DNA of 64,000 nt, taken from Haematococcus lacustris (lineage: Eukaryota; Chlorophyta; Chlorophyceae; Chlamydomonadales; Haematococcaceae). The notes under the pieces were generated by a model. The model did not search any database. It saw only the letters and a program-made list of their open reading frames with translations, and was not told where the DNA came from. The DNA is taken from assembly GCA_030144725.1 (NCBI GenBank), contig JASKMD010000003.1:21501937-21565936 (forward strand), in the 5' to 3' direction. This document shows positions 7,721 to 58,344 of this stretch, piece by piece. Each line of letters opens with the position of its first letter. The first letter of the stretch is position 1. The position numbers were made by a program, and so were the translations under genes.

Positions 7721-7721
7721 T

Positions 7722-18699: not shown

Positions 18700-18890
18700 G
18701 ATGTCCTCCTCCCTGTCTCCCTCCCTATCCTCCTGCCTGTCCCCCTCCCTATCCTCCTCCCTGTCCCCCTCCCTATCCTCCTCCCTGTCCCCCTCCCTAT
18801 CCTCCTCCCTGTCCCCCTCCCTATCCTCCTACCTGTCCCCCTCCCTATCCTCCTCCCTGTCCCCCTCCCTATCCTCCTCCCCGCCCCCCT
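18700..18890. repeat. 24-bp pyrimidine minisatellite
   Basis: Tandem copies of CTCCTCCCTGTCCCCCTCCC-TAT lead directly into the pentanucleotide tract. They probably seeded it. Confidence 0.85.
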
Positions 18891-36451: not shown

Positions 36452-36765
36452 CACTCGTGCAAATTAAGGCCTGGCTGGCTTGAAAAACCTGAGAGTTGAG
36501 GTCTGAGACTTGGTATGTGGGCTGCTGTGACCTAGGGGATGACAAGACTCTCTTGGGCCAAAGTGTAATTCTCACTCGGTGTCGAGTTGCTGGGCCAGGT
36601 ATGGGGCTGAGACCCTGATTTTGGCTAAGGGAGTTGGCACCGTGTGACCAAAGTGACTTTTCATGAAATGTGAGTATGAGAGGTTGTGGAGGGTGGTTAC
36701 AGCTGCCCAACCTAGTAGGTTGCATGCAAAAAGTCTCAGCCAGTGATGAGCTATGGCCCGTGTCA

Positions 36766-38715
36766 TAGGACCCTGCACCGGGTCCTAGCGTCACCATGGT
36801 CGTAGGACCCTGTACCGGGTCCAGTGTACCCTGTGAGTGTTGATATTATAATCTTGCTTTGCATCCCTATGTGATAGAACCCAATTAGGATCCCTACATA
36901 CCAGGTTGTTGGTCCTGTTGACCCCGTTTGGATGCTTTTGACCATGTGTGCCTGGACCCTGTACAGGGTCCTACGATGAGTGCCTTTCCACACAGGGTCC
37001 TGGCACCTCACCACAGGGTTCTGGTACCACAGGGTCCTGGCACCACACCACAGGGTCCTGCTGCACACCTACAGGGTCCAGGCCCACAGGGTCCTGGCAC
37101 CTCACCACAGGGTCCAGACACCACCGGGTCCTGGCACCTCACCACAGGGTCCTGCTGCACACCTACAGGGTCCTGGCACACAGGGTCCTGGCACCTCACC
37201 ACAGGGTCCTGCTGCACACCCACAGGGTTCTGGCACACAGGGTCCTGCGACGTTCATCTACAGGGTCCTGCCGCACGCCTGCAGGGTCCTGCGACGATTG
37301 GCTACAGGGTCCTGCCGCACTCCTACAGGGTCCTGCGACACACGGCTACAGGGTCCTGCCGCACGCCTACAGGGTCCTGCGACCCACGTCTACAGGGTTC
37401 TGCCGCACGCCTACAGGGTCCTGCGACACATGTCTACAGGGTTCTGCGACGTTTAACTACAGGGTTCTGCCGCACGCCTACAGGGTTCTGCGACGTTTAA
37501 CTACAGGGTTCTGCCGCACGCCTACAGGGTCCTGCGACGTTTGGCTACAGGGTTCTGCCGCACGCCTACAGGGTCCTGCGACACACGGCTACAGGGTCCT
37601 GCCGCACGCCTACAGGGTCCTGCGACACACGGCTACAGGGTTCTGCCGCACGCCTACAGGGTCCTGCGACGTTTGGCTACAGGGTCCTGCCGCACGCCTA
37701 CAGGGTCCTGCGACACACGCCTACAGGGGTCTGCCGCACGACTACAGGGTCCTGCGACACACGGCTACAGGGTTCTGCCGCACGCCTACAGGGTCCTGCG
37801 ACACACGGCTACAGGTTCCTGGCGCACGCCTTCAGGGTCTTGCGACACACGGCTACAGGGTTCTGCCGCACGCCTACAGGGTCCTGCGACGTTTGGCTAC
37901 AGGGTTCTGCCGCACGGCTACAGGGTCCTGCTACACACGCCTACAGGGTTCTGCCGCACGTCAACAGGGTCCTGCGACACACGCCTACAGGGTTATGCCG
38001 CACGCCTACAGGGTCCTGCGACGTTTGGCTACAGGGTTCTGCCGCACGTCTACAGGGTCCTGCGACGTTTGGCTACAGGGTTCTGCCGCACGTCAACAGG
38101 GTCCTGCGACACACGCCTACAGGGTTATGCCGCACGACTACAGGGTCCTGCGACACACGGCTACAGGGTTCTGCCGCACGTCTACAGGGTCCTGCGACAC
38201 ACGGCTACAGGGTTCTGCCGCACGCCTACAGGGTCCTGCTGCACACGTCTACAGGGTTCTGCCGCTCGCCTACAGGGTCCTGCGACACACGCCTACAGGG
38301 TTCTGCCGCACGCCTACAGGGTCCTGCTGCACACGTCTACAGGGTTCTGCCGCACGCCTACAGGGTCCTGCGACACACGGCTACAGGGTTCTGCCGCACG
38401 CCTACAGGGTCCTGCGACACACGGCTACAGGGTTCTGCCGCACGTCTACAGGGTCCTGCGACATTTGCTTACAGGGTCTTGCCGCACGGCTACAGGGTCC
38501 TGGCACCACAGGGTCCTGGCTCCTCACCACAGGGTCCTGCTGCACACCTACAGGGTTTTGGCACCTCACCACAGGGTCCTGGCACCACAGGGTCCTGGCA
38601 CCTCACCACAGGGTCCTGGCACCATACCACAGGGTCCTGGCACCACACCACAGGGTCTTGCTGCACACCTACAGGGTCCTGTCTCCACACCGCAGAGTCT
38701 TGGTCCACAGGGCCC
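36766..38715 (+). repeat. Left subterminal array A of the outer transposon
   Basis: It begins with imperfect palindromes (36766-36835) and the perfect 18-bp palindrome GGACCCTGTACAGGGTCC (36954-36971). Units of CCACAGGGTCCTGGCAC type follow. From 37240 a 44-bp dimer takes over (CTACAGGGTCCTGCGACACA and CTACAGGGTTCTGCCGCACG halves of 23 and 21 bp). All three forward frames stay open, so the long ORFs here are artefacts. Probable role: binding sites for the element transposase or an accessory protein. Confidence 0.9.
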
Positions 38716-38780
38716 TGGCACCATACCAGACCCTCTGCTGTAGTTCAACCCCAGGTTGCTGTCCATGCATTGTCAAACGT

Positions 38781-41700
38781 TCAAATACGCTGATCAGGCC
38801 TGTATGGCTCTGAGATTCTGACCCACTGGCCTGCCATGCCGCGCCTGTTCCAGTCTGCCATCTTGGGCCCAAAGCCCTCATCCTGGATGGGCTGAAACAA
38901 CCCATGGTACAAGTCCCCCAGCTCAGAGGTGTTCATGGTGGTGTTGTCAGCCACTGTGTCAGGCCGGCCAAAGCCATACAGCCTGGCGCAGCACGAGCCA
39001 GCCACCCCCACGTTGCCAGCATGCACTGTGTTGCCTCGGAACAACACCAGCTGCCCAGCCTTCACCAGGACCTCTGTGCCCAGTTGATGACGCAAGGCCA
39101 GGGCCAGGGCATCCATGTCCTCCTCTTCCACCACTTGCTTCTGACCATCAGCCGTCCGCCGGCAATGGGCTGCAGCCAACCGGGACAGTTTGTGGCTGCC
39201 CATGTAGGCAACCAGGGGGAAGTCCTGGAGAGCCAGCAGGAACACCAGGCCGTCATCCATCCCTGGTCCAACAGGGAGGAAGTCGGTGTGGGGAGCCTGG
39301 GCCTGAGCCAGCTGCTCGGCCAGTGTAGTCACCAACTTCCCCGTCCTGGTCAGGCGACGCTGCCAGGTGGGGTCAGTGATGATGGAAGCTAGGGCGTTCA
39401 GGGGGCGGCCCAGCAGCTGCCTCAGCACCGGCTGCAGGAGGGTGAGGTACCGCGTCAACACCTTCTTGGCCTCATCCACCTGCAAACACACCCAAAGTGC
39501 TGTCTATTGTGCTTCATGCAGCCCTGAATCTTGGTAAGTTAGGAAATGCTTCTGCAGCAATGGCTATGTACTACTGTTGTGGCTTGTGTCATCTGCTGCA
39601 CACCTTAATCTATCTGTCTCTTACCTCCTTCTTCTTCTCTTCTGTCAGCGCGTTGTACACAGCCGCGTTGTACTTGTCTGTCAACAGCGTTAGGGTGGTG
39701 TCTAGGTCGCCACTGCTGTTCTTGTCCGACTTGGCCAACACCACCTGCACCCTCTGGCCAGTGCCATACTGTGTCTTGCTGTTGGCATTGACTGAGCTGA
39801 ACACCATGCGGTTATAGACCCTGGTGATCAAGATGCTGGCCGCAACCACCGCTGCCATATCTATGGCTAGCTGGGGCAGCTGGAAGATGGTCAGGCCATT
39901 AGCTAGAGCTGCTAGGCGACACTGCTCTAGCTCATGAGGCTGGTAGACATCCCCTGTGTATGGCAGCAAGGTGGGCAGCTGATACACCATTCCCTGCGTG
40001 CAAGGTAGCAATGCACGGCATGCTCACAAGTACCCGTCACTATCAATTCATATCAGCTAGTTATGCCACTCGTACCTGTTTATTCTTGGGGAACCGCACT
40101 GCTCCTCCATGCAGCAGGGTGCCTCCTGTGCTTGCCTGCAAACACAATCCACACATATCCTACTGAGCCATAGCTGGAGTCAGTTAAACCGTGCTCTAGG
40201 TTAATGAAACCCTGCACCATGTAGCTGAAACCCTGCACAAGGTCAACGTAACCTTGCACAAGGTTTAAACCTGTTGTAGGCTGTTTGTAGCTGATCACCT
40301 GCTCTCCTGACTGGCCACTTCCAGTCAGGGCTGTGTTTGCCAACACTTGGAGCCTCCTTCTGCCCACCAGCTCATCCTACATTCAGTGGGTCGTTTACAA
40401 GTTGGGAATGCTGTTATGCCTCTTTGGCAGCTTGGGTCTCACCTCCAATCTGTTGACTGTGTCCTGCACGGTGTCCACCTTCTGAATCAGGTACTGTACG
40501 AGGGCCTGCAATGGCAAATGAAGCAATGGGAATCTGAGCCACTGTCACAATGCTTTATGATGCTGTCTTGCTCCTATGTGCTGTAATGTTGTGATCCTAC
40601 CTGATCCTCGGCAAGCCTCGGCCTCTTGGATGATGAGGGACCAGCAACCTCCCCTCCAGGCTGCTGCTGCTCCTCTTCAGTCACCTGTCGCTGGTCCTGC
40701 TGCTGATGCTGGTGCTGCTGCCAACCTGCTGCTGTGCCTGTCGCCCGGGTGCTGGTGCCCACCTGTGCCCACTGCCCTCTGCGTGTCTGGCGGTGGGGCT
40801 GCACTGGCGGATGGTGCTGATGCTGCCCTCCTGCTGCTGGTGTAGGCAACAGGGGAATGGAGGGGGCAAGGCTGAGTTGCACACGTGCTGCTGGTGCACG
40901 CCGCATGACAGGTGAGGGGGCAGGGCTCCGCTGCACACCTGCAGGCAGGGCAGTTCCTAGGCCTGTGGTGGGGGCCTTCAACCTAGGTACACCCGCTGTT
41001 GGTGTGGCGGGGGACTGTCGCACAACCGCTGCTGAGGCTGGCTGTTGGACAGTGGATGGGGCTGGGTGCTGCTGCACACCTGCTTCTGGGGCTGGCTGTG
41101 GGGCAGGTGAGGGGGCAGGGGGCTGCTGCACTCCTGCTGCTGGGGATGGCTGGGGGGCAGGTGAGGGGGCAGGGGGCTGCTGCACTCCTGCTGCTGGGGC
41201 TGGATGGGGGGCAGGGGGGGGGGCAGGGGGCTGCTGCACTCCTGCTGCTGGGGCTGGATGGGGGGCAGGGGGGGGGGGCAGGGGGCTGCTGCACTCCTGC
41301 TGCTGGGGCTGGATGGGGGGCAGGGGGGGGGGGCAGGGGGCTGCTGCACACTTGCTGCTGGGGCTGGCTGTGGGGCAGGGGTGGTTGCAAGTGAGGGAAG
41401 GGTAGGGGGCTCTGTTCTCAACACAAATTCCGCCAAAGTAGCACACTCCTTTCTACCCTGCACTTCACATAGGTACACATAATCTGTGTCTCCTTGACTC
41501 TTCATCTCCGCATCTGCACATGATAGTTAACAGAAACATGAATGCATGGATACCTTGACGGCCTGCTGGCAACTAGTCAGCCAACTAACTCATCACCTCG
41601 CTTGTATGTGTCCCACAAGCTAGCGAACGGCTTTAACCCCTCAGGGGGACTGGCTTCTTGTATGCCTTTGAAATGGTGGTTGAAGTAGGCGAAGTACTTG

Positions 41701-42118
41701 TTCCACTTGAGCAGTTTTGGGGAACCTGGTTGGGGGTACTTCTGTGCAACCAGTTTCCAGGTCCTGTATTGCAAACAAGGCACACACTTGGGCACGTCCT
41801 CATGAGCATTGGGGTGCATTGGCACTCACCTGTCCACTATCGCCTCTGTGTTACTCTGTGTGGCCATATCACAGGGCACAACAGTTTTGGCCACGCAAAA
41901 TCCACAACACACATCACGCCAGGGGTCATTGATGCTGGCCAGCCCAGTCGCATCCTACATGCAAGTAGCCATCGTAGATGAGTGTAGTGCTACCGATGTG
42001 GCGTGTTAGGCTAGATTTTGCTTTTTACCTGGTTGCGGGGGCCGCATCGCGCCAGGAAGTTAATCATGTCTACGGCGACTTCTTCCAATGCCGCATTGCC
42101 TGCTGCTGCTGCTGCCAT
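38781..42118 (-). CDS. Transposon-borne predicted 2OG-Fe(II) dioxygenase (9 exons)
   Basis: Exons on the minus strand: 42029-42118, 41830-41954, 41597-41763, 40601-41513, 40443-40505, 40299-40376, 40076-40135, 39625-39993 and 38781-39479, all with GT-AG borders and matching phases. Exon 4 encodes a Pro/Ala/Gln-rich linker and is out of frame by two bases. Two of its tandem units are 55 bp instead of 54 because their G-runs are 11 long instead of 10. Allowing for that, the protein is about 853 aa. The last exon has an HTD (HxD) iron motif at codon 39290, YMGSHK, a distal His (NTVHAG, about residue 774) and an Arg 13 residues later. This is the signature of the jelly-roll 2OG-Fe(II) oxygenase fold. 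Substrate is unknown; nucleic-acid oxidation (TET/JBP-like) is one possibility. The N-terminal 400 residues are unrecognised. Confidence 0.75.
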
Positions 42119-42301
42119 TGTGCGTAGTCCTGATAGTGTGCGCGTGGCCGCAATGGACTTTCAAACTCTAGTCTGATGGCATGTGATCAATAATGCTGCA
42201 AGCCACGGGCATGGTGATATGCACAGCTTGCCTTATCCCAGTGTTCAGTTTGTCGCGTGTTAGGCCTCGTTTAGGTATATGTCAACACCTTCTAGTGCAC
42301 T

Positions 42302-42306
42302 TTACA
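42302..42306 (-). terminator. Candidate TGTAA poly(A) signal of the 42.4-45.2 kb gene
   Basis: TGTAA on the minus strand, about 94 nt after the stop codon at 42400-42402. This is the usual poly(A) signal in chlorophyte nuclear genes. Confidence 0.5.
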
Positions 42307-42399
42307 GGGGTCACTGAAACCCTGCACACGGTCAGCTTAACCCTGCACTAGGTCATCAAAACCCTGTGCAAGGTTTGTCCATGAACCTCTAGCATTTCA

Positions 42400-45207
42400 T
42401 CAATCAAACAAGTCACAGCGTGCTGCTGCTGCCGCCACTGCTGCATCTGCATCTGCTTCTGCTGCTGCCACTGTCTCTGCTACTGTCCCTGCCCCTGCCT
42501 CTGCCCCTACTGTGCCGGGTGCCACTGCCCCTGCCCCTGCCTCTGCCCCTGCTGTGCCGGGTGCCACAGGCCCAGCCCCTGCCACAGGCCCAGCCCCTGC
42601 CACAAGCCCAGCACCTGCCACAGGCCCAGCACCTGCCACAGCCCCTGCTGCCCCTGCTGCCCCTGCCACAGCTCCTGCTGCCCCCACTGCCTCTGCTGCC
42701 ACCACTGCCCCTGCCCCTGCCCTTGCCCCTGACACAGCCCCGGCCCCTGCCCTGCCCCTGCCCCTGTTGCCGCTGTTGCTCCTGACCCTGCTCTGCCTCT
42801 GACCCTGCCTTGCCTCTGCTGCTGCCTTTGCCCCTGCCCCTGTTGGCCCTGCCCCTGTCCCTGTCCCTGCTGCCCCTGCTGCTGCCCCTGTCGCCACTGC
42901 TGCCCCTGCTGCCAAGCCTGTCAGTAGCGCAGAGGCGAGCTCCTCTGCCTCTGCCCCTGCTTCTCTGCCTGCACGCCTCTTCTTGGCTGCAGCTGGTGTG
43001 GGGTGAGCTGCATTGGCAGCTGCCTTGCCCCCTTGGCGAGGGGGTGCCGCTGGGCCTGCCTGCTGCCCTGCACCGCTGGCATCCTGCAGCTCCAGCAACA
43101 GCTTCGCCTTGTACTCCACAAGCCGGGTCTTGGTCGTCAACTGCACACAAGTAGGTGGCAATATGAAGCTTGGAAGGTTAGGCATGGTATGAGGTATGGT
43201 AGGGCATGGTAGGGCATGGTAGGGCATGATAGGGCATGGTAGGGTATGCACGTAAGAAGTCAGCTACTTGCCTTCCACCAGGATTGGTCCTGGGTGCTTG
43301 CCTCCAACAGCAGAGTCTTGGCCTGCGCCTCCGCCGCCTCCTGCACATCATCAAGCAGAGCACACATACTCGGCCAACAAGTAAAATCACATACCCCTAC
43401 CAGCATTGAATCGAGATACTCACAGGGTCCTGCTTGCTGCCGCTTGGGATAGACCTTGCTAGGTCCCGGGCCACCTCGTCAAACTGGTCATAGAATGTCT
43501 GAGACATTGCTTTCCAGGCCTTGGCAGCTTCAGGGTGCTTGCCTTCTGGTGTCTTGTCTGGTTTCTTCCAGTTCTCTGCGATCAGGGGTGCACGCAATGT
43601 CATGGGTTAGTTCCACAGGGTCCTGGTACCTCACCACAGGGTCCTGCTGCACACCTACAGGGTCCTGGTACCTCACCACAGGGTCCTGCTGCACACCTAC
43701 AGGGTCCTGGTACCTCACCACAGGGTCCTGCTGCACACCTACAGGGTCCTGGCCCACAGGGTCCTGGCACCTCACCACAGGGTCCTGTCTCCACTCACCT
43801 GAGGCTGCTTTCAGCTGAGCAGCTAAGGGCAGGAATGACTCCATTTCAGTGGGTACCACATCGTCATTACTGAACGGGGTACCAGCAGCCACCGCTGCTG
43901 CCTTGGCTTCCAACAACCGGCCTCCAAACTTTGACTCCCACTCCTCATGTGTCTTCTGGGTCTCCTCTGCTTTACGAGTTGTCGGCGGCACCCGGGCCAG
44001 CTGCTTAGGAGTGCTCGGTCGTCTGACCCAATCGTACGACCTACACGTTCAAGGGTACCAGGTCGTTGATGACGACCTGTACTAATGATGGGTTGCATGC
44101 TATGGGTGCATGATGGGTGGATGCATGCTACCCACTTTTTGAATGCCGCCAGCAACATCCAGTAGCTCAGCAAATCCAGGTAGGGTGGGTTGGCCTTGGT
44201 GAACTCCTTCCAAACGAGGCCGATGATTGCCCGCATGGGGACATTCCACCTGGCCTCCACCGCGTTGCTGCCCAGTTTGGGGTATTCCCCTGGTACACAG
44301 TTGGGGATGGTGTACTGCACAACACACACCAATACTGATTCACTAACATCCACATCAGAGAGGAAATTAGGTTGGTCACATGGTTACACCATTCATTGCA
44401 CTATCACCTGGCCCACACAACGCGGGCACCACAGCCGGATGTATTTGGGGGCGAACTTGCCCCAGAGAGTGGAGGCATCTTCCTGCAAGGATGCATTGGG
44501 TATAGATAACCAAGGTGACATGGGCAGTAATGACTTAAGGCTATGGTCAATTGTTGTGTAAACCCTACACTAACCTCATATTTGCCCAACGCGCTGAAGG
44601 GCTTGTCGGCGTTGGGCACATGATCTCTGAACTGAAATCACATGGCAACGATGGGTCATGGTTAGCAAAGGACATTGAGGCACAGGCAACGTGACCACAG
44701 CAAATCAGGCAGCAGAGGCACGCAGCACCATGCTCACCCGCTTGAGGAGGATCTTGCTGAACTCATCAGGGACCCGCTTCCCCCCTTTGCGCGTGCGTTT
44801 CTTGGCTGGCCCCTGCTTCTGCTTCTCTTCCTCATCCTCCTCGTCCTCCCCCTCCATCTCCTCCTCGTCCTCCCCCTCATCCTCCTCCCCCTCCCCCACA
44901 TCCTCCAGGTCCTCCTCCTCTCCCACCCCCTCCCCTTCATCACCAGAAGGGGCAAAAGGCTCAAGGGGCTGCTCCCTTGGTCGCTGGGCCAAAGGCAATT
45001 CCTCGGACTCGTGCCCAGAGTCAGCTGTGCGAGGTGCTGCAACCGTAATCTGCAGCAACGATAGTTCATGGAGTTAATGAAAGCATGAAGGTGCCTGGCA
45101 CGGCAATGCATCGCGGCAGGCAGGCGGTATTGATACAAGAATTACTATACCTTCTTGGCGGTGGGCTTAGTGGCGACGGGCTTCTTGGCGAGCGTGTTGC
45201 GGTACAT
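42400..45207 (-). CDS. Transposon-borne protein of unknown function (9 exons)
   Basis: Exons: 45151-45207, 44738-45049, 44575-44631, 44408-44482, 44132-44314, 43799-44000, 43424-43575, 43272-43340 and 42400-43140. Phases agree throughout, giving about 615 aa. Intron 8 uses a GC donor (AAG/GCAAGT). The N-terminus is Lys-rich, followed by a long Glu/Asp tract and a basic KKRTRKGGKR (possible nuclear signal). A CPRC pair and a Trp/Lys-rich middle follow. The C-terminal 180 residues are Ala/Gly low complexity. I recognise no family. It is divergently transcribed from the transposase across 150 bp. That position would suit an accessory DNA-binding protein such as En/Spm TNPA, but this is inference only. 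Confidence 0.72.
43613..43797. repeat. Mini-array of CCACAGGGTCCTG units inside an intron
   Basis: About eight units identical in type to arrays A and B occupy most of intron 6 (43576-43798) of the unknown gene. The splice donor GTGAGTGG lies directly at its edge. It is spliced out and does not break the reading frame. Confidence 0.85.
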
Positions 45208-45357
45208 TTTAGAGGCTGTTGTTAGGGGCTGGCAAGACGACCACAACACGATGTAGCGGTACTTACTCACAAAATTCTCGTCCAAGCCACAGTTAACCAA
45301 AAGTCACTTTGTCGGCCAGCAAGCGACGCCGGGTGGGTACACTCACAGCGGGCCGCG
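45208..45357. promoter_or_regulatory. Divergent promoter region of the transposon
   Basis: 150 bp separate the ATG of the minus-strand unknown gene (45207) from the ATG of the transposase (45358). Both genes must be driven from here. I see no clear TATA box. Confidence 0.55.
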
Positions 45358-48300
45358 ATGGCCCAGCGGACACAGTGCGACCATTTGCTCTCCAGGCTTC
45401 CCAAGACACAGGCAATCATGGTGAAGACTGCCTATCAATGCCTAGTGTGCGGAGTATCAGGCGGCATAAAAGGAATGCGCACTCACTGTTCCAAGAGCCA
45501 TCCCCAGTTCGTGGGAGCCGAAGGCACGAAGGCTTGGGCAGAGTGGCAGGCAATGTCGAAAGCCCAGTCCCCAAACGCTCAGCAACACACATCGCAGGAG
45601 TCGGCAGTAAGATGTCGATTGCTTTTAGTTAGTACGTGCTGACGTACATGTGCGCATGAGCCAGCTAATGCGTGTACCTCACCGCGGACAATTTGCGCCG
45701 CAGGCCACATGTTGTCCGCATGTTGTGACGACATGTGTGCAGGGGAGCTGTGGAGATGGAGGAGGGGTGGATGAGAACGGGCAAGGAGATGGAGGAGGGG
45801 TGGCTGAGGACGGGCAAGGAGGCAGGGACCAGGCAGCCCCAGCGGGACAAGAGGGTGGCAGGATTCCAGAGGGTGCATGGAGAGGACAGGGAGGAGGGAA
45901 CGACCAGCGTGGGAGGGGAGAAGAGGACAACAGGGGGGGACAGCGCGAAGACAGAGAAGAGGGGGATGTAGGAGGAAGGGGAGGAGTCGACAGAGGAGGG
46001 GACGGAGGTGATAGTGATGACAGTGGGAGTGAAGACAGTGATGAGGAAGGGGATGGGTATCCAGGAGGTCCCGGGGGTCCAGGAGGTCCAGGAGGCCCAG
46101 GAGGTCCCGGAGGTCCAGGAGGTCCAGGAGGCCCAGGGGGTCCAGAGGGGGATGAAGGAGGGGGAGATGGCGCCAGGGCACGTCGAAGCAAGGTGTTCAA
46201 GCTTGATGCCAACCTTCAACAACCCGTGTTCAGGTATTTAGAAATAACAGATAATAGTACCACAAGCAGTGAGTTGTTCAATGTAATTGTTGCTTGTCTT
46301 TGTGCATGCCATTACAGGAACTGCCCCTTGACAGGCAAGGACATGATGGACGAGCTGAGCCGGCTTTTGGACATGAGGCTGACGAAGGAGCAGATGAAGG
46401 GGGTGTTGAAGCTGATCCGTAGGCTACTTGCAAACCAGCCAGATCTCAACCTCATCACCAGCTTCTACCAGCTGATGAGTTTGCAGGGCGTCCAGCACGC
46501 AAATGAGTACGAGGTGCATGTGTGCAACGCGGGCAAGGACAACAAGGCCAACAACAAGTACTGTCCAGGGTTCACCTACCCCAAGATACGACGGTGAGGT
46601 CAGGGGAATGGGTGTGGATTAGGCTATGCATGCATGGCGCAATACACATGGTGTTAGTTGGGGTCAAGGTTGCCTTAATGTGCATGCATGGTAGGTCTGA
46701 GTGGCTCGCCCACAAGGATGACAAGTGCTACTACTGCGAGACGCCTCGCTTCCACGTGAACGACAGAAAAGGTGAAACCAATCTACATGGGCATGGTCAA
46801 TTCTCAATGACACTTGTACAGGTATACATGTGTTGTATGCTGTCCCTTGCTTGGTTACAGGGAGCCCACAGGAGATCACCTTGAAGCCTCGGTGGAGCAT
46901 GTCTCTGTTCGGCTGGGACACAGTGGTGAAGAACATCATGGAGCGCAAGGACGTGATGACCTGGTTCAGGCGAGCTCGGGGCGTGGACCCACCTCCTGGC
47001 TCTTTCCGGGCAAGTGAGTAGGCATGGGTTGACCATGGCATAGAATTGACGGCTTAGAAAGGTGATTAGTACAGTGACATGCACCATACCATGATGTTGT
47101 TGTTTGGCAGGCCCTGCATGGCGAGAGATGCAGCCCAAGCTACCAGAGGTTGTGGCCACCTCCCCCAACACAGCCCACTTCATGATTGGGGTTGACTGGA
47201 TGACCCTGGGCAAGAACGGCACCTGGTCAGTGGGTGTGATCCTGTTGAGGCTGCTGGATGTGCCGGCTGAGGTGTGCGGCAAGCGGGCGTGCAGCTCAGT
47301 GCTGGCCGTCATCAACGGAGGAAAGCACCAGTCTCACCTGACAGGCTACATGAAAGCCATCTGCCAGGAAGTCAGCAAGCACATCGAGGGCCCGGGTGAC
47401 CTGGGTGTGATAGTGGAGCCACACCCAGGCCCAGGTGTTGATGGTGTGGCTCCCGCCCGTGTTGAGCCTGTCCGCATCCATGGAGTCCCAGTGGTATCAA
47501 TCGCTGATACCCCAGCCACGTGAGTGAGACAAAGGCCAACAGCTAGCACCTACAAATGATTCCACCACCTCCCAGTCCAGTCTATCCCTATACAACTTGT
47601 ACCCTGCCATGTATCATCCACAAACATATTACAACCATTGAGGAATGAATTGCGTGATTGTGTGCATGTAGAGCCACTTTGACCAGGGCCATGGGCCACA
47701 GCGCCCTGAAGATGTGCTACAACTGCAACATCAGCAAGCCCCCCAACCCCCCTACAGAGAAGGCGCCCCTTGGCTACGACTCGCCAACGCTGCAGACCCT
47801 ACCAGGCTCCAACCGGGAGGTATGGAACACTTGACACACTCGACAGCATGTGCTATTGAAAACAGACCAAGGATCCCTTGGCACACACAATCCATGCTTG
47901 CGGTGGCGGACTGCAGGAGTATGTGCTCATCTATGACGTGCGCATGAAGTTCAGCCACGAGCAGATCATGGACCGAGGTGCTCCCTTCATCCATGGGTGG
48001 TCCCAAGGCGACCCTAGGGTGGTGGGCTGCCACGCCCAGCCCCTCCTGCCCCTGCTGCTCCAACACCTGGACGCCCGGTTGGCCCACCTGGTGCCTGTGT
48101 ACCACAGCTTCATGTATGGCTTGCTGAAGCACCAGCTGGAGTGGTTCATGAGTGCAGATGGCCTTCACATTGATGTGCGGCGTGAGATAGTGAAGCGTGG
48201 AGCGGCCATCCAATCCCCATCTGACTTGGGACGGGACCTGGGAGACCTTGCCAACCGCACGTAAGCCATAAGCATGTAGTGCAGTATGTCATAATCACAT

Positions 48301-50202
48301 CACACTGAACGGAAAGGATGTGGACATCTCAAGGTGCATGTCATGACCACTTATGATTGCACTGGTGCTCCAATGCCCATGTCATCATGCAGTGGATGGC
48401 GCATGGAGGACTACAAGCACTGGTATGTGCACTTCTCACCCATCGTGTTGCGGGGCAACCTTTTGCCAGAGCCCTACCGTGGGTTGTGGACAGCCTTGGA
48501 GGGCGCTATGCTGCACTACTTGACACCAGGTAAATTACAAACAAGCAACTACAGGCACGGTCCCATGATGACTAACAAATACATAACAATCCCCCGGTGC
48601 ATGATGACTAACATATACCTAACAATGAGGATTTGTCTTCCCAATTCAGGCTCGGAGAACAGCGCCACACCTGAGGGAATGGCGGCAGGCTATGCACATC
48701 TGAAGACCTATGCAGCCAGGTTGGAGCGCTGCCGCCGTGATCCTCAGCTCCCAGCTGCACATGGAGACAACGAGGGCAAGCTGTCTGTGCCTACTGACCA
48801 AGTCTGCCCAAATCTCCACACAACGGCCTGCAGGTGAGAGTTTAAACAGTAGCATGCAGGCCAACCTTACCCATCAACAATGCATGCATGCTGCAGGCAG
48901 ACCATGCATAAACATGGTATCATGGCTGTGGTGTGCACAGGCTGTTCATGCAAGAGAGCAATGTGGGCAGGACATACCTGTTTGGCGAGCTCTGGATCGA
49001 GCGTGACCTGCATGACTTGAAGTCCATCACCACCAGCGGCATTCCTGGAGCCCAGCTGGATGCCCACATAGCCATGCGGGTGGCCGGGCATAACGCCAGC
49101 AACAGGCTGCTTGACCGGGCTGAGCCGGAGGCACAGCAGGACTACAAGGCCCGCCTGAAGGACGAGCTGACCCAGGACGGGCAGCAGGCCCTGCTGCTGG
49201 GAGCGGGCAGTGCAGAGTGCCCACTGCAGAACAGCCCGGGTGCCATGATGAGGGGCTGCATGAAGGCAGTCCAGGATCTGCAGAACAGCGACGAGGCCAC
49301 CCCATGGCGCCCATGGCACGTCAAGCAGGTGTTCGGTGAGGTCTTAACCCAAGGGGAGGCAGAGGAGGAGGCCAAGGAGGATCAACGGGTCGCTGACCCT
49401 GCACCCCCGTACCCAGTGCGGTACTACCAGCGAGCAGACTGCAATGGCACCATTGTGTTCAGCAGTGTTTACAAACGCCCCTCAACCCGCAACAACACCT
49501 GGGTCAGCATCCCGTTCGAGCTCGATGACGACAAGTGGGCCATTTGGGCTGGCCATGTGCAGTTCTGGGTTCGTTTGGAGCACCCCAAGCTGCCTGGGGT
49601 GTTCCTACGCCTAGCAGTCAGCCGCATCTACTTGACACGCCCTACATCCCACCCCTCATGTTTGGCAGCAACAGGTCAGGCTGTTCCCAGGCCACATCAG
49701 GCAGCAGGAGCTGGAGCAGCGGCTAACGCAGGAGGCCAGGGGGGAGAGCCACCAGGAGACGGGAATGCAGAAGGGGCTGCTGGGCCCAGCGGTATAGGTG
49801 GACCACAGCAGCACAGGTCAGCAAAGCGTGGGGTGGTGCAGGCAGCAGCGGAGGCAGCCAGCACAGGTGGCACCAGGAAGTCCCAGACACTCGTGCAAAT
49901 TAAGGCCTGGCTGGCTTGGAAAACCTGAGAGTTGAGGTCTGAGACTTGGTATGTGGGCTGCTGTGACCTAGGGGATGACAAGACTCTCTTGGGCCAAAGT
50001 GTAATTCTCACTCGGTGTCGAGTTGCTGGGCCAGGTGTGGGGCTGTGACCCTGATTTTGGCTAAGGGAGTTGGCACCGTGTGACCAAAGTGACTTTTCAT
50101 GAAATGTGAGTATGAGAGGTTGTAAAGGGTGGTTACAGCTGCCCAACCTAGTAGGTGGCATGCAAAACGTCCAAGCCAGTGATGAGCTATGGCCCGTGTC
50201 CT

Positions 50203-52375
50203 AGGACCCTGCACCGGGTCCTAGCGTCACCATGGTCGTAGGACCCTGTACAGGGTCCTGTGTACCTGATGAGTGTAGATGTTTTAATCATTCCTTGCAT
50301 CCCTATGTCATAGAACCATGTTAGGATTCCTACATAGCTTGTGGTTGGTCCTGCTGACCCCGTTTGGATGCTTTTGACCATGTGTGCCAGGACCCTGTAC
50401 AGGGTCCTACGATGAGTGCCTTTCCACACAGGGTCCTGGCACCACACCACAGGGTTCTGGCTCACAGGGTCCTGGCACCTCACCACAGGGTTCTGGCACC
50501 ACAGGGTCCTGGTACCTCACCACAGGGTCCTGCTGCACACCTACAGGGTCCTGGCACCTGACCACAGGGTTCTGGCACACAGGGTCCTGGCACCACACCA
50601 CAGGGTTCTGGCACCACAGGGTCCTGGCACCACACCACAGGGTCCTGGCACCACACCACAGGGTCCTGGCCCACAGGGTCCTGGCACCTCACCACAGGGT
50701 CCTGGCACCACAGGGTCCTGGCACCTCACCACAGGGTCCTGGCACCACACCACAGGGTCCGGCCCACAGGGTCCTGGCACCTCACCACAGGGTCCTGGCA
50801 CCACAGGGTCCTGGCACCTCACCACAGGGTCCTGGCACCACACCACAGGGTCCTGGCCCTCAGGGTCCTGGTACCACACCACAGGGTCCTGGAACCACAG
50901 GGTCCTGGTCCCTCACCACAGGGTCCTGGCTCACAGGGTCCTGGCACCACACCACAGGGTTCTGGCACCACAGGGTCCTGGTACCTCACCACAGGGTCCT
51001 GCTGCACACCTACAGGGTCCTGGCACCTGACCACAGGGTTCTGGCACACAGGGTCCTGGCACCACACCACAGGGTTCTGGCACCACAGGGTCCTGGCACC
51101 ACACCACAGGGTCCTGGCACCACACCACAGGGTCCTGGCCCACAGGGTCCTGGTACCACACCACAGGGTCCTGATACCACAGGGTCCTGGCACCACACCA
51201 CAGGGTCCTGGCACCTCACCACAGGGTCCTGGCCCACAGGGTCCTGGTACCACACCACAGGGTCCTGATACCACAGGGTCCTGGCTCTTCACCACAGGGT
51301 CCTGGCACCTCACCACAGGGTCCTGGCCCACAGGGTCCTGGTACCACACCACAGGGTCCTGATACCACAGGGTCCTGGCACCTCACCACAGGGTCCTGGC
51401 CCACAGGGTCCTGGTACCACACCACAGGGTCCTGATACCACAGGGTCCTGGCACCACACCACAGGGTCCTGGCACCACACCACAGGGTCCTGGCCCACCC
51501 CACAGGGTCCTGGCACCACACCACAGGGTCCTGGCACCACACCACAGGGTTCTGGCTCACAGGGTCCTGGCACCTCACCACAGGGTTCTGGCACCACAGG
51601 GTCCTGGTACCTCACCACAGGGTCCTGCTGCACACCTACAGGGTCCTGGCACCTGACCACAGGGTTCTGGCACACAGGGTCCTGACACCACACCACAGGG
51701 TTCTGGCACCACAGGGTCCTGGCACCACACCACAGGGTCCTGGCACCACACCACAGGGTCCTGGCCCACAGGGTCCTGGCACCTCACCACAGGGTCCTGG
51801 AACCACAGGGTCCTGGCACCTCACCACAGGGTCCTGGCACCACACCACAGGGTCCTGGCCCACAGGGTCCTGGCACCTCACCACAGGGTCCTGGCACCAC
51901 AGGGTCCTGGCACCTCACCACAGGGTCCTGGCACCACACCACAGGGTCCTGGCCCACAGGGTCCTGGCTACCACACCACAGGGTCCTGATACCACAGGGT
52001 CCTGGCACCACACCACAGGGTCCTGGCACCTCACCACAGGGTCCTGGCCCACAGGGTCCTGGTACCACACCACAGGGTCCTGATACCACAGGGTCCTGGC
52101 ACCTCACCACAGGGTCCTGGCCCACAGGGTCCTGGTACCACACCACAGGGTCCTGATCACCACAGGGTCCTGGCACCACACCACAGGGTCCTGCGCCCAC
52201 ACCCACAGGGTCCTGCGTCACACCCGTGGGTGTGACGCAGGACCCTGTGGGTGTGACGCAGGACCCTGTGGGCCAGGACCCTGTGGTGTGTGCCAGGACC
52301 CTGTGGGTGTGCAGCAGGACCCTGTGGGTGTGTGCCAGGACCCTGTGGTTGTGACGCAGGACCCTTTGCAACAGG
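50203..52375 (+). repeat. Left subterminal array B of the nested element
   Basis: Tandem units of 19-24 bp (CCACAGGGTCCTGGCAC type) with higher-order duplications. Perfect palindromes GGACCCTGTACAGGGTCC lie at 50241-50258 and 50390-50407. The array reverses orientation at 52226. Forward and reverse long ORFs here are artefacts. Confidence 0.92.
52199..52254. repeat. 27-bp-arm perfect inverted repeat where array B flips
   Basis: The arms 52199-52225 and 52228-52254 are exact reverse complements around a central GT. To the left the array runs as CAGGGTCC, to the right as GGACCCTG. It could extrude as a cruciform. Confidence 0.9.
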
Positions 52376-54500
52376 GTCAACTGTGGCTCACGATTTCAGG
52401 GCTGAAATTAGATATGTGGGCTGCTATGACTTTGAGGAGTACAAGTCTCTCTCAGGCCAAAGTGTAAATCTCAGTCGTTGGGGAGTTGCTGGACCATCAT
52501 GTGGCATGGAAAACATCAAGTTGCATGGAGGCTTGCATGGGGGGTTCGCAAAAGAACCGTGAAGGAAGCAAAGGAATCGCGAAGGGCATCTTGACTGCCC
52601 CGCCAAGCTCGCATGCTGCATAATGGCAGCCAGGAGCAGCCAGGAGCAGCGAACAGGACATCGTCGCGAGAAGGGTAGCCACGAGCTAGACAGCCATCTC
52701 TAGCCAGGAGCCTTACAGCATTCGCGACCAGCCATAGCAATCATGTCAGGCGATAGGATCAAGAGGCAGCACTGTACACAGCACACGCATATCGCAGGAG
52801 CTAGCAGCCAGGAGCAGCCAGGAGCAGCCAGGAGCAAATCGCAGCCTCATTCGTAGAAGACATCGCAAACGCAATACGCAAAAGAGGCATAGTGATGTTA
52901 GCGATGTAGCCATGCCAGCCAGCCATCGCCAGCTAGCAGCCTCACAACATAGCATATCGCAGCCAAATGCAAGCTATTGGCAGCATGCAGCCTCATCGCA
53001 ACCGCGACCAGGTCGAGCGAAAGGAGCAGAAAGCGCAGCGAGATAGAGAGCAGAAGGTGCAGGAAGGCTCATGTGGCGTGGCTTGCTTGCAGGTGGAGCG
53101 CCAAGAACCCGAAACAAGATGAACATGGCACAGCTAAGAGGACAGTCAAGAGCTAGGAGCCAGGAAGTGCAGCCATTGGAAGCAGTAAGGCGGCGCAGCT
53201 AGGAGCAGCCAGGAGCAGTTAGAAGCTGTAGCGATGAGCGGCAATGATGAGCGGCACCGATGAAAGGCAATCATGAGCAGCACCCTCCCATTTTCCCCCA
53301 TCACACACTCCACTCTACAAATGGTGAGTGGCTTGCTGTGGCAAATGTGTGGCTCCATGTACCCAGTCTGACTACTAGCATGCCCTTGGTAACTGCAGGT
53401 TCTTCTGGTCACACCCATCCCCCTTTTCCACTACCAATACCACCTCCACCAGCACCTCCCCTCCCCCTTTCCTTTCTTTATAAACCCACTTCCCCCTTCC
53501 CCGTCACCTCTCCCCAGACATCCCGGCAGCCAGGAGAAAGCCCACCCCACCCACCCTCTTTCCACCACCACCACCACCACCACCACCACCTCCCTTCCCC
53601 CTCTCTCTCCCTCTCCCCTCCCATACTCCCATGCTCCCATACTCCCAAGCCTCCCTTCCCCTCTCCTACCCTTCGATTGACGTGGCATCGCAGCCCCCAC
53701 CTCACCCTACCTTCCCTTCCCTACACCCTATACTCCTCATCGCAATCCCACCCCACTGACGCATGGGAGATGTTGCCTGGTGATATGGTAAGGCCACGGT
53801 GATAGCTAACACAGTGCCCAGCCTGGTCACCCTACCGCACGTGCACGCCCCTTGGTTGCAGGTCTGATGGGCACCTCCCCTCCACTCTCCCTACACAACC
53901 AACCCCTCCCAATTCATCCTCCCCAGCCCCCGCCCCCGCCCCCGCTCCCTCCCCCGCCCCCACCCAGGCCCATGCCCCCAACCCAGGCCCCCACCCAGCC
54001 CAACCCAGGCCCCCACCCAGCCCAAATCATGCCCCCAACCCACCCCCGCCCCGCCTCCCCCCCTCCCGCCTCCCTGCCTCCCCGCCTCCCGCCTCCCGCC
54101 TCCCGCCTCCCGCCTCCCGCCTCCCGCCTCCCGCCTCCCGCCTCCCCGCCTCCCGCCTTCCACATCTCCCCCCCCCTCCCCCTCCCACCCCCTTCCCAGC
54201 AGCATTCATCAAGCCGCCAAAAGGTAGGTAGGTGCTACAGTGCCCCTACTATATCTGCTGCTGCTACTGCTCCTGCAACTGCTGCCCCCCTGTTGCTGCT
54301 GCCCCCCTGCTGCCGCTGCCGCTGCCCCTCTGCTGCGGCTGCTGCCCCCCTGCATAGGCTGCTGCAACCATGTCTCCATGCTTGCTAGCAGTGTGACAAC
54401 AGCCTTGACCATGAGCATCACATGTGTAGTATGCTTGGTAATTACAGGCAAGGCTGCAACGGCGTAGAGCTGCAGCCAGAAGCAGCGAGGAGCAGCCCGG

Positions 54501-54842
54501 CCCAGCCCAGCCCAGCCCAGCCCAGCCCAGCCCAGCCCAGCCCAGCCCAGCCCAGCCCAGCCCAGCCCAGCCCAGCCCAGCCCAGCCCAGCCCAGCCCAG
54601 CCCAGCCCAGCCCAGCCCAGCCCAGCCCAGCCCAGCCCAGCCCAGCCCAGCCCCCCAGCCCAGCCCAGCCCAGCCCAGCCCAGCCCAGCCCAGCCCAGCC
54701 CAGCCCAGCCCAGCCCAGCCCAGCCCAGCCCAGCCCAGCCCAGCCCAGCCCAGCCCAGCCCAGCCCTCCCCTCCCCTCCCCTCCCCTCCCCTCCCCTCCC
54801 CTCCCCTCCCCTCCCCTCCCCTCCCCTCCCCTCCCCTCCCCT
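54501..54842. repeat. (CCCAG)n followed by (CTCCC)n
   Basis: About 265 bp of CCCAG with one CCCCCC interruption near 54652, then about 77 bp of CTCCC. Opposite-strand ORFs are repeat artefacts. Confidence 0.95.
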
Positions 54843-55520
54843 GCAGCCATGAGCAGAAAGCAAGAGTAGCAGCCAAGAGCAGCAGGTAGGAGGCGGCTGC
54901 CTGGAGCGGCAGCCAGGACTTCCGGTGAGTGCACATGCTTGGGAGGTGTCAGCCTAGCCTGCCCGGTTCTGGTCATGCATGTCCTAATCCATCTGCTTGC
55001 TGGCTGATGTTTGATTGCAGTTGTCGACAGCTGGAGCATGGCAGGTGAAGCATGGCCGGGTTGATTGCAAGCATGGCGGTAGAGCAGCAACCAACAAGGA
55101 GCCAGCAAGGACCGTACCCTCCTCGTACCCCGTACCCTCCCCCGGCGTCGTGACATGGAGCATAACTGTAAGTGGCCAGTCCCTGCACATGAGTGGTCCC
55201 CAATGCCAAGCCTAAATGCAAGGATGCCTCTTGCTGCCGCAGGTCTGATGGTCACACTGCTGCCCCTTGCCCCCTTCCCCCTTCCCCCTTCCCTGCCCAA
55301 GCCCACCACCACCACTTCCGAGTCTGCCACCTACCTACCCTCCTCCCCTCCTCCCCTCCTCCCCTCTTCTCTCCTCTCCCCCACCCAATGGCACCCAGCA
55401 GCCCTTGGCGTAGCAGCATGGAGCGGGCAGCCTGGAGCGGGCAGCCCGGAGTGGGCAGCATGGAGCGGGCGGCCTGGAGCGGGCAGCCTGGAGCGGGCAG
55501 CCTGGAGTGGGCAACCTGGA

Positions 55521-55680
55521 GCCAAGCCTAGCCCAGCCTACCCCAGCCTAGCCTAGCCTAGCCTACCCCAGCCTAGCCTAGCCTAGCCTACCCCAGGCTA
55601 GCCTTGCCTAGGCTAGCCTACCCTAGCCTACCCTAGCCTAGCCTACCCCAGGCTAGCCCAGCCTAGCCTAGCCCAGCCTG
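55521..55680. repeat. CCTAG/CCTAC pentamer repeat
   Basis: Irregular AGCCT/ACCCC pentamer tandem (AGCCTAGCCTACCCC types) just upstream of 55.7 kb. No coding potential. Confidence 0.85.
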
Positions 55681-55954
55681 ATTTGGTGCCATGGGGCATA
55701 GACAGCAAGGCAAAGTGCTTAGCAGTCCCGTGATGAGGTGTTAGCCCATAGCAATGAGGTGCAGCCAGTCCTTGTGGTTGTGCACATGGCATAGGTGGTG
55801 AGCAATGCATGAGTCGTTGTGTTGTTGTTGTAGTGATGTTGTGTGGTGTTGTTGTGTGGTGTTGTCACCTTGCATCAATGCATGTGCTTAGCACCAGCAA
55901 TACATGCCGTTTGTTGTGGTGTTGCAAGGTGTTCGGGCGTCGTTGCATACGTTG

Positions 55955-56735
55955 TGGCAGGACCCTGTAGGCGTGTGGCAGGACCCTGTGAACGTGTGTC
56001 GTAGGAACCTGTAGCCGTGCGGCAGGACCCTGTGGGAATATGTCGTAGGACCCTGTAGCCGTGCGGCAGAACCCTGTGAGAATGTGTCGCAGAACCCTGT
56101 AGCCGTGCGGCAGAACCCTGTGAGAACGTGTCGCAAAACCCTGTAGCCGTGCGGCAGAACCCTGTGAGAAAGTGTCGCAGGACCCTGTAGCCGTGCGGCA
56201 AAACCCTGTGAGAACGTGTCGCAGGACCCTGTAGCCGTGCGGCAAAACCCTGTGAGAACGTGTCGCAGGAACCCTGTAGCCGTGCGGCAGGACCCTGTGA
56301 GAAAGTGTCGCAAAACCCTGTAGCCGTGCGGCAGAACCCTGTGAGAACGTGTCGCAAAACCCTGTAGCCGTGCGGCAGAACCCTGTGAGAAAGTGTCGCA
56401 GGACCCTGTAGCCGTGCGGCAAAACCCTGTGAGAACGTGTCGCAGGACCCTGTAGCCGTGCGGCAAAACCCTGTGAGAACGTGTCGTAGGAACCTGTAGC
56501 CGTGCGGCAGGACCCTGTGAGAAAGTGTCGCAAAACCCTGTAGCCGTGCGGCAGAACCCTGTGAGAACGTGTCGCAGGACCCTGTAGCCGTGCGGCAGAA
56601 CCCTGTGAGAATGTGTCGCAGGACCCTGTAGCCGTGCGGCAGAACCCTGTAGACGTGTGTCGTAGGACCCTGTAGCCGTGCGGCAGAACCCTGTGGCCCA
56701 GGACCCTGTACAGGGTCGGTAGGACCCGGTACAGG
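55955..56735 (-). repeat. Right subterminal array C of the nested element
   Basis: A 44-bp dimer read on the minus strand: a CACAGGGT(T/C)(C/T)TGCCGCACGG half followed by a CTACAGGGTCCTGCGACACG half. It is inverted relative to array B and ends with GGACCCTGTACAGGGTC (56701-56717). Confidence 0.92.
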
Positions 56736-57170
56736 GTCGGGCGATTTTTCAAATAGTTATAACATCGCAGCAACTTTGAGTTTTTCAATGATTACAACGG
56801 CGATGAGTCGGCCTTTCCTGGGGCTATCTGCAGTATGCCTCCCGGGAAGAAATGACGTAGGCGACTTCCGGCCTTATTCGGCGCGAGTGGAGGCTTGCAG
56901 CCGGTGCATCACAGCGTCAGGCTGACCCCCTTCCACCTGTTCAGGAGCGCCCGCAGCAGTCAGCCATGGGCAGCATGCACCAAGGCTATGGAGATCAGCA
57001 TTGGTATATGTTTGATGCCACCAAGATCTTCACAGTCTTTGTGACCAGCTTTGAGGATGGGGAGGGCTACGGCCGTATGTTCTTTGTGCCAGCGCACAGC
57101 CTCAGCCGCAGCTAGTCATACATCAATCACGGTTCTGCACCCAGTAAGAACGGATGACAGATTAATTGCT

Positions 57171-57175
57171 TGTAA
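57171..57175 (+). terminator. Candidate TGTAA poly(A) signal of the transposase gene
   Basis: TGTAA lies 56 nt after the TAG at 57113-57115. It supports 57115 as the true 3' end of the transposase before the insertion. Confidence 0.55.
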
Positions 57176-57284
57176 TGCTGTTCTTGTTCTATGGTTGTTG
57201 GGCTGCGTCACTGTCATGTTGCTGCTGCTGCCACTGTCACACCATCAGCATTTAGTGATAGAATGCCTTAGATACCTAGCGGTA

Positions 57285-58190
57285 TGACCTGTAGGACCCT
57301 GTAGACGTGCGGCAGAACCCTGTAGCCGTGTGTCGCAGGACCCTGTAGGCGTGCGACAGACCCCTGTAGGCGTGTGTCGCAGGACCCTGTGACGTGCGGC
57401 AGAACCCTGTGGACAAGTGTCGCAGGACCCTGTAGGCGTGCGGCAGAACCCTGTAGCCGTGTGTCGCAGGACCCTGTAGGCGTGCGGCAGAACCCTGTAG
57501 CCGTGTGTCGCAGGACCCTGTAGGCGTGCGGCAGAACCCTGTAGACATGTGTCGCAGGACCCTGTAAGCGTGCGGCAGAACCCTGTAGCCAAACGTCGCA
57601 GGACCCTGTAGACGTGCGGCAGAACCCTGTAGCCGTGTGTCGCAGGACCCTGTAGACGTGCGGCAGAACCCTGTAGCCAAACGTCGCAGGACCCTGTAGG
57701 CGTGCGGCAGGACCCTGTAGCCAAACGTCGCAGGACCCTGTAGGCGTGCGGCAGAACCCTGTAGCCAAACGTCGCAGAACCCTGTAGGCGTGCGGCAGGA
57801 CCCTGTAGCCAAACGTCGCAGGACCCTGTAGGCGTGCGGCAGAACCCTGTAGCCAAACGTCGCAGGACCCTGTAGGCGTGCGGCAGGACCCTGTAGCCAA
57901 ACGTCGCAGGACCCTGTAGCCGTGCGGCAGAACCCTGTAGCCGTGTGCAGCAGGACCCTGTAGGCGTGCGGCAGAACCCTGTAGCCAAACGTCGCAGGAC
58001 CCTGTAGGCGTGCGGCAGAACCCTGTAGACGTGTGTCGCAGGACCCTGTAGCCGTGCGGCAGGACCCTGTAGACGTGTGTCGCAGGACCCTGTAGCCGTG
58101 CGGCAGGACCCTGTAGACGTTAGTCCTAGGACCCTGTAGCCGTGCGGCAGAACCCTGTAGCCCAGGACCCGGTACAGGACCCGGTACAGG
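57285..58190 (-). repeat. Right subterminal array D of the outer transposon
   Basis: The reverse complement of the array A 44-bp dimer (GCAGGACCCTGTAGGCGTGC and GCAGAACCCTGTAGCC halves), about 20 copies. It ends in GGACCCGGTACAGG palindromes before the unique terminal 150 bp. Confidence 0.92.
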
Positions 58191-58344
58191 GTCGGGCGGT
58201 TTTTCAAATAGTTATAACATCGCAGCAACTTTGAGTTTTTCAATGATTACAACGGCGATGAGTCGGCCTTTCCTGGGGCTATCTGCAGTATGCCTCCCGG
58301 GAAGAAATGACGTAGGCGACTTCCGGCCTTAATCGGCGCGAGTG

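Follow-up and report, generated by a model that had tools for sequence, protein, structure and literature searches.

The locus described here raises the question of whether three genes lying between satellite-like repeats in a green alga form a single mobile unit and, if so, what an oxygenase does in it. In a 64-kb stretch of a Haematococcus contig, which was analysed as a whole and is called the window below, the region 36452-58344 is one mobile unit, nested guest included, with exact ends and a 2-bp target duplication. It encodes a transposase, an oxygenase of the PhyH type, putatively dependent on Fe(II) and 2-oxoglutarate (2OG), and a further protein whose gene is called gene 2 here. With modest confidence we favour the reading that it belongs to a large CACTA-like (CMC-type) cut-and-paste family of Haematococcus pluvialis with an anti-silencing module at its arrays of the motif ACAGGGTYCTG.

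Ends, copies and subterminal arrays

An earlier note on this DNA had described matching inverted ends with TT on both sides, and these were re-read exactly in the window: the terminal inverted repeats CACTCGTGCAAATTAAGGCC (36452-36471) and GGCCTTAATCGGCGCGAGTG (58325-58344) are complementary at 17 of 20 positions when one is reverse-complemented, and TT abuts the element on left and right. The element ends read CACTCG...CGAGTG, in the window and in other copies. When the genome was searched with the left 301 bp, 40 matches were scored among 1,188 first-look candidates; all 40, the window copy included, are 98-100% identical and run from base 1 to base 299-301, which confirms the left boundary as it had been drawn. 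When 20 copies were fetched as 10-kb stretches, the right end was found in 10 and, after a second stretch, also in locus L027; in the other nine it was absent from the fetched stretch, and six of these contain runs of N. Of 13 two-ended elements, counting the outer element and its guest, 12 have a 2-bp duplication and one (L014) a 3-bp duplication; L020, included in the 12, differs in its last two end bases. With a chance of 1/16 per element, at least 12 two-bp duplications in 13 correspond to a binomial p = 4e-14.

The structure of the element, 14.9 kb with a nested guest of 7.0 kb as originally proposed, was borne out through a further complete copy and through the empty sites of both outer element and guest. 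The second copy, called copy 2 (L027/L029, C136:6261552-6276328), is 14,777 bp long, compared with 14,889-14,891 bp for the window copy (copy 1) minus its guest. It is flanked by TG on both sides, has arrays at both ends, lacks the guest and contains the three genes in the same order, all open. A search with the joined flanks of the outer element returned nine matches, namely the window's own two halves, a site on C251, two matches over bases 31-293 and four short ones. The C251 site matches contiguously with 87% identity across all 293 bases of the joined flanks, and its junction reads TTGAATT directly followed by CGTTCAATTG, i.e. with the single TT expected of an empty site. The two weaker matches (76% and 73%) are continuous, with TATC followed by TGCT at the junction and TT absent. 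These are paralogous places and not alleles. The ends, arrays and guest are as follows.

36450..36451, no strand: left target-site duplication TT; the paralogous empty site has a single TT
36452..36471, + strand: left terminal inverted repeat CACTCGTGCAAATTAAGGCC
36452..36790, + strand: conserved left end; first 301 bp 98-100% identical in 40/40 scored copies, itself included
36991..38709, + strand: left subterminal arrays with units of 21 and 44 bp; every core ACAGGGTYCTG is forward, with 68 exact copies in 36452-38780
49886..49887, no strand: GA, left half of the guest's target duplication; copy 2 has one GA at this place
49888..56889, + strand: guest, 7,002 bp, same ends as the outer element
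50427-52215 (forward), 52222-52365 and 55953-56695 (reverse): guest arrays
56890..56891, no strand: GA, right half of the guest's target duplication; copy 2 has one GA at this place
57293..58190, − strand: right subterminal array with 44-bp units; every core is reverse, with 37 exact copies in 56890-58344
58163..58344, + strand: conserved right end including the inverted repeat 58325-58344; 99% identical to the guest right end over 169 bp
58345..58346, no strand: right target-site duplication TT; paralogous empty site

The guest interrupts the final transposase exon, where copy 2 reads AAGTCCCAGAGGCTCGCAGCC with one GA at the guest position, which is the guest's empty site. From 49888, its left end is 97% identical to that of the outer element over 300 bp, and its right end, up to 56889, is 99% identical over 169 bp. 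The guest interior matches all 10 other non-autonomous copies examined (79-99% in aligned stretches >150 bp), and in the two of 11 non-autonomous interiors whose frames were listed these are of low complexity only. Judged by these similarities, the guest belongs to the outer element's own family as a non-autonomous member. The nested insertion itself had been correctly recognised; the guest is not foreign.

Tandem Repeats Finder placed 44-bp units at 37237-38556 on the left and 57293-58162 on the right, mutually inverted. Together with the polarity of the core motif (68 forward cores and none reverse in 36452-38780, none forward and 37 reverse in 56890-58344), this confirms the inverted 44-bp-unit arrays previously seen just inside both ends, which measure 0.9 and 1.7 kb. 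Across the window there are 172 cores in forward and 66 in reverse orientation, all of them inside 36452-58344; the core was found neither elsewhere in the window nor in 20 mononucleotide shuffles of it. The guest repeats the polarity, with 94 forward and 1 reverse cores in 49888-52220 and 0 and 28 in the rest. The remaining 10 forward cores fall within gene 2, one intron of which has a mini-array that is also present in copy 2 (L027:7067-7226). Arrays also accompany the diverged dioxygenase at the two loci of this kind that were read. At L051, 60 exact cores are forward and 2 reverse. At L050 there are only 5 exact cores, but also a 0.7-kb array built of a related 21-bp unit, ACCCTGCGCAGGGTCCTGGTG, and part of transposase exon 9. 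A separate transposase frame stands beside the diverged dioxygenase copy of L051 (L051:6094-7743) and is presumably hAT-like.

Two further observations concern the copies. L022 and L023 show two occurrences of the element's first 339 bp, 3.2 kb apart, with 97% identity and without arrays, and the right end is absent within the fetched 10 kb. L012 and L013 are opposite-strand copies on C147 with a common left flank, i.e. a large inverted duplication or an assembly duplicate.

Three genes and their recurrence as a unit

The dioxygenase gene and gene 2 are read leftward, and the transposase gene is read rightward from a divergent interval of 150 bp. That these are three multi-exon genes, as had been proposed, is supported by copy 2, in which all three are open and the splice sites inferred in the window are conserved.

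38781..42118, − strand: dioxygenase gene, 8 exons; exons 1-4 at 42118-42029, 41954-41830, 41763-41597, 41513-40601 (P-rich, frame break in the window copy); exons 5-8 at 40505-40443, 40135-40076, 39993-39625, 39479-38781
42400..45207, − strand: gene 2, 628 codons including stop, 9 exons; exons 1-5 at 45207-45151, 45049-44738, 44631-44575, 44482-44408, 44314-44136; exons 6-9 at 44040-43799, 43575-43424, 43340-43272, 43140-42400
43613..43787, + strand: mini-array of the ACAGGGTYCTG motif in a gene 2 intron, 9 exact forward cores
45208..45357, no strand: 150 bp that separate the start codons of the divergently read gene 2 and transposase gene, with a presumed promoter role
45358..49887, + strand: transposase gene; its 11 exons give 1155 codons before the guest
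56892..57115, + strand: remainder of the last transposase exon after the guest, ending ...PAHSLSRS-stop

The earlier reading of the first gene as that of a 2OG-Fe(II) oxygenase carried by the element was supported. In a Pfam search, PhyH (PF05721) scored 25.6 and 27.5 bits in the two copies, above its gathering score of 22, and 20 of the 21 members of an exon-8 alignment matched it at E<=0.01. PhyH was the sole family above a cut-off in the two copies and the alignment, and TET/JBP did not match. Exon 8 bears HTD, VHAG and ARLYGF, and the strings APHTDF, LFRGNTVHAG and RLYGF are invariant in 22 exon-8 sequences from three subfamilies; we take these residues to be the HxD...H facial triad and the 2OG-binding R. 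In searches of solved structures only weak matches were obtained (best E 0.83 and 0.048). In the window copy, exon 4 has a frame break in poly-G repeats and a length of 913 nt versus 1,061 in copy 2, for which an assembly error is a possible cause. The 54-bp coding repeats of the oxygenase linker lie at 41028-41381, with G-runs of varying length and an open frame in copy 2.

In the genome, the best 150 of 406 dioxygenase candidates were scored and all of them matched, some loci giving two rows; 140 of the 150 rows are stop-free. Between the window oxygenase and six members of two diverged subfamilies (three at 57-58% and three at 51-55% identity to the window copy, forming separate supported groups) dN/dS is 0.28-0.36 at a dS of 1.2-1.4, which is near saturation. 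Between copies 1 and 2 it is 0.37 for the N-terminal and 0.57 for the C-terminal exons, and the synonymous excess, with exon 4 left out, is significant (p=0.002). The transposase gives 0.24 in the same comparison. Gene 2 gives 0.63 as a whole, with 0.38 in its core, 1.14 at the acidic end and 0.88 at the alanine-rich end. The GC-AG intron between gene 2 exons 8 and 9 (43141-43271) is kept in both copies. No N-terminal domain common to the dioxygenase, gene 2 and the transposase was found (best E 0.3).

Linkage was counted between the best 150 scored dioxygenase rows and the best 150 scored transposase rows, so that all counts are lower bounds. Among dioxygenase rows of 49-100% identity, at least 81 of 136 have a divergently read transposase on the expected side at a distance of 1-30 kb, compared with 9, 5 and 9 rows for three other arrangements. 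Divided by identity, the linkage is at least 56/103 at 82-100% (controls 9, 2 and 5), at least 4/6 at 59-62% (0, 0 and 0) and at least 21/27 at 49-55% (0, 3 and 4). The median distance in the 82-100% group is 10.2 kb, as in the window, and reading at the expected offset revealed transposase exons in seven of ten loci. A group of 14 rows at 29-30% identity was set aside as another family, with 0/14 linked to the element's transposase among the matches listed (controls 1, 0 and 0). One of its members is a multicopy PhyH-like frame (L062:404-1738) that scores 20.3 bits, below the PhyH cut-off of 22; this group is perhaps another oxygenase-bearing mobile family.

With an 80-residue exon of gene 2 as query, all 86 candidates were scored and gave 76 match rows. 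A same-strand dioxygenase lies downstream in 60 of them, a divergent transposase upstream in 58 and both in 49, whereas control arrangements occur in 3, 1, 4 and 2. Gene 2 is thus part of the unit. The description of it as an unknown cargo gene understates its place as a recurrent component of the family.

The dioxygenase and gene 2 appear to travel together in most cases. Where gene 2 rows of 77-100% identity have a dioxygenase partner (n=50), the partner is at least 80% identical in 47 and 50-59% identical in three; where rows of 51-59% have one, it is 49-53% identical in all ten, and nine of these have a transposase at 93-95%. Since nine elements combine a dioxygenase of 52-53% and a gene 2 of 51-52% with a transposase of 93-95%, the dioxygenase and gene 2 seem to behave as a cassette that is exchangeable between transposase lineages. 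Six of the 56 transposase partners of 82-100% dioxygenases are only 57-58% identical. The mixed identities would be explained equally if the pair had been exchanged between transposase lineages or if the transposase end had undergone gene conversion.

Superfamily placement and a proposed role of the oxygenase

By eye, the transposase has as candidate motifs an N-terminal C2H2-like zinc finger, D (GVDW), D (IADTPA), CxxC and E (WIER). The CMCT core has C(2)C and H(3-4)H between its second D and E; here CxxC is kept in both copies, and the H spacing has no clear match. In naming these residues (DDE, zinc finger) we assume that they follow CACTA patterns. The transposase of copy 2 extends 74 codons past the guest site to a stop. 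A relative with 33-36% identity (25 rows) and WVER for WIER at L066:3959-5001 represents a second element family; a transposase scan of viral contigs gave no relatives. The profile check suggested for Transposase_21/tnp2 and KDZ came out negative. PF02992 did not match the window copy at E<=1 or the copy 2 core at E<=10, and a whole-genome PF02992 search found nothing, but its controls likewise found nothing. Pfam includes a KDZ transposase profile, which was not matched in the Pfam search.

The CACTA-like label of the earlier note is justified as a resemblance by CAC..GTG ends, short duplications and inverted subterminal arrays. Membership in CACTA is unproven because there is no profile match and duplications are of 2 bp in 12 of 13 elements; KDZ membership is disfavoured because of the duplication length together with the missing profile match. 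The window copy is probably not autonomous now, since the oxygenase frame is broken and the transposase gene is split by the guest.

In the mechanism that we propose, the transposase, with its putative N-terminal zinc finger and DDE-type core, would cut at the element ends. Gene 2, the transposase finger or both may bind the arrays, by analogy with Spm TnpA or VANC, and gene 2 would bring the PhyH-type oxygenase to the element. There, the role that we infer for the oxygenase is to reverse or block a silencing mark, most likely 5-methylcytosine. The dioxygenase and gene 2 would work as one cassette, exchanged between transposase lineages. As for the mark, the genome contains C5 DNA methyltransferase exons above cut-off (9 matches on two scaffolds). 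The observed/expected ratio (o/e) of CpG is 0.42-0.49 in three flank stretches, and CpG transitions between the two copies are twice as frequent as those at GC sites (50/629 vs 68/1713, p=0.0002). This pattern fits cytosine methylation and falls short of showing it. That the swapped cassette is a DNA- or chromatin-demodifying machine addressed to the 22-bp-motif arrays is, in our estimate, a tentative proposal with rather less than an even chance.

Several observations weigh against the anti-silencing reading. The DDE and zinc motifs are by-eye candidates judged against CACTA patterns, and no Pfam or NCBIfam transposase family matches the transposase. Gene 2 has no Pfam family above cut-off and no recognised DNA-binding domain in either copy. 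Constraint within the young subfamily is weak on the catalytic half of the oxygenase (median dN/dS 0.51 in 120 pairs, pooled pN/pS 0.59), 3 of its 15 members exceed a dN/dS of 0.8 versus the window copy, and for the C-terminal exons alone the comparison of copies 1 and 2 is not significant (p=0.08). AlphaFold gave no usable structure for a single oxygenase exon (mean pLDDT 36.5). On the expected side of the dioxygenase, 55 of 136 rows have no transposase among the matches listed. The CpG signal is modest (AC 5.9% and GG 5.6% vs CG 8.0%), and CpG o/e within the element ranges from 0.08 to 0.90. Finally, the oxygenase is of the PhyH type and not TET/JBP or AlkB, and the PhyH family is best known for small-molecule substrates.

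The oxygenase could alternatively be passenger cargo, e.g. a PhyH enzyme related to lipids or carotenoids that takes no part in transposition or silencing; PhyH being the only matching family and the pooled pN/pS in the young group speak for this. Passengers should, however, tend to decay and be absent from most copies, whereas the catalytic residues are invariant across subfamilies at a dS of about 1.2-1.4, 140 of the best 150 scored rows are stop-free and the order with gene 2 and the transposase recurs; we consider a passenger unlikely. The oxygenase might instead write a modified base, as CMD1 or JBP do, that marks or protects the arrays during transposition. The TET homologue CMD1 of Chlamydomonas reinhardtii converts 5-methylcytosine to a glyceryl derivative (PMC12730594), and the right arms are CpG-rich (o/e 0.79 and 0.90). 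CMD1 is of the TET/JBP type, however, and the element's enzyme of the PhyH type, and the guest left arm is CpG-poor (o/e 0.08), so that a writer seems quite improbable.

A further alternative concerns the transposase and not the oxygenase: the element could belong to a separate superfamily, KDZ or undescribed, with CAC..GTG ends that arose by convergence and not by CMC/CACTA descent. The lack of any Pfam or NCBIfam transposase match, the terminal five bases CACTC instead of CACTA and the 2-bp duplication are in its favour. We nevertheless find it doubtful, given that the succession D, D, CxxC, H-rich, E is similar to that of CMC, that the KDZ element Dileera, Zisupton-1_PGr, duplicates 8 bp (PMC12730594), a length found in 0/13 copies here, and that duplications in the CMCT group range over 2-5 bp (PMC12730594). 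A chance assembly, in which a gene cluster merely happened to be flanked by satellites, could draw on the satellite-like arrays and on the array-free first 339 bp at L022/L023; it is refuted by copy 2, the 2-bp duplications in 12 of 13 elements and both empty sites, with genome-wide linkage also against it, and we give it practically no credence.

Relation to described elements and neighbouring repeats

Ends of EnSpm/CACTA elements carry the pentanucleotide CACTA (or CACTG), and in Spm the second protein, TnpA, binds repeated subterminal motifs. The present element resembles EnSpm/CACTA in its CAC..GTG ends, short duplication, inverted subterminal repeats and non-autonomous relatives, and in having a transposase plus a second protein (PMC8978399). 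It differs in the terminal CACTC, in arrays of 0.9 and 1.7 kb, in the absence of a detectable Transposase_21 profile and in the PhyH oxygenase gene; unlike TnpA as a counterpart to compare with, gene 2 shows no similarity that Pfam could detect. While CACTA elements produce 3-bp duplications (PMC4158355), here they are of 2 bp in 12 of 13 cases and of 3 bp in one; the 2-bp length lies within the CMCT range quoted above. VANDALs are elements of the MULE type. With VANDAL/VANC of Arabidopsis the element shares arrays of short motifs in the same orientation in noncoding regions (PMC5735166, PMC10398659), and for VANC21 arrays also lie within an intron of the very gene presumed to act there (PMC5735166), as they do in gene 2. 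The available parts of these two papers describe no oxygenase partner of VANC, and array binding by gene 2 is only putative.

Large elements with several genes are known from a red alga, in which EnSpm elements of 16-20 kb contain 4-5 open reading frames (PMC6431247). Fungal EnSpm elements carry TET/JBP dioxygenases (PMC12730594), and these TET+ transposons share with the present element a 2OG-Fe(II) dioxygenase on DNA transposons that passes between lineages (PMC12730594). In contrast to them, the host here is a green alga and the enzyme a PhyH protein that is combined with a second gene and subterminal arrays. Compared with other PhyH dioxygenases (PF05721), which it resembles in its profile score above the gathering threshold and in HxD...H...R, the enzyme is mobile and multicopy. 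The earlier note knew of no described element with this layout. General layouts are in part known (PMC6431247, PMC12730594), and the full combination of green alga, PhyH enzyme, paired gene and arrays was not found in the openly licensed literature.

In a green alga, a DNA transposon family has thus made a 2OG oxygenase and a partner gene part of the genes that it regularly carries, paralleling the fungal TET+ transposons with a different enzyme family. If the cassette does act as a demodifying machine, it would be an independent algal counterpart of the fungal TET+ transposons and, as far as the openly licensed literature shows, the first anti-silencing oxygenase outside TET/JBP and AlkB. Whether transposons repeatedly recruit oxygenases against silencing thereby becomes a testable question. 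Haematococcus pluvialis can be cultured (strain SAG 192.80), and the arrays, gene 2 and the enzyme are each open to study in vitro. Transposable elements make up 50.8% of its genome (PMC10400597), a share to which the element family must contribute.

The window contains further repeats outside the element. A single run of 430 CCCCG copies (2.15 kb) occupies 18879-21032, the hexamer TGACCC is repeated 121 times at 33091-33816, and a G-rich 21-bp minisatellite at 62892-64000 reaches the window end. Other short-unit arrays with palindromic cores lie at 1-278 and 7713-8570 (ATCTGTACAGAT; AACCAGTACTGGTT, 21-bp units) and resemble the arms of other transposon families of like style.

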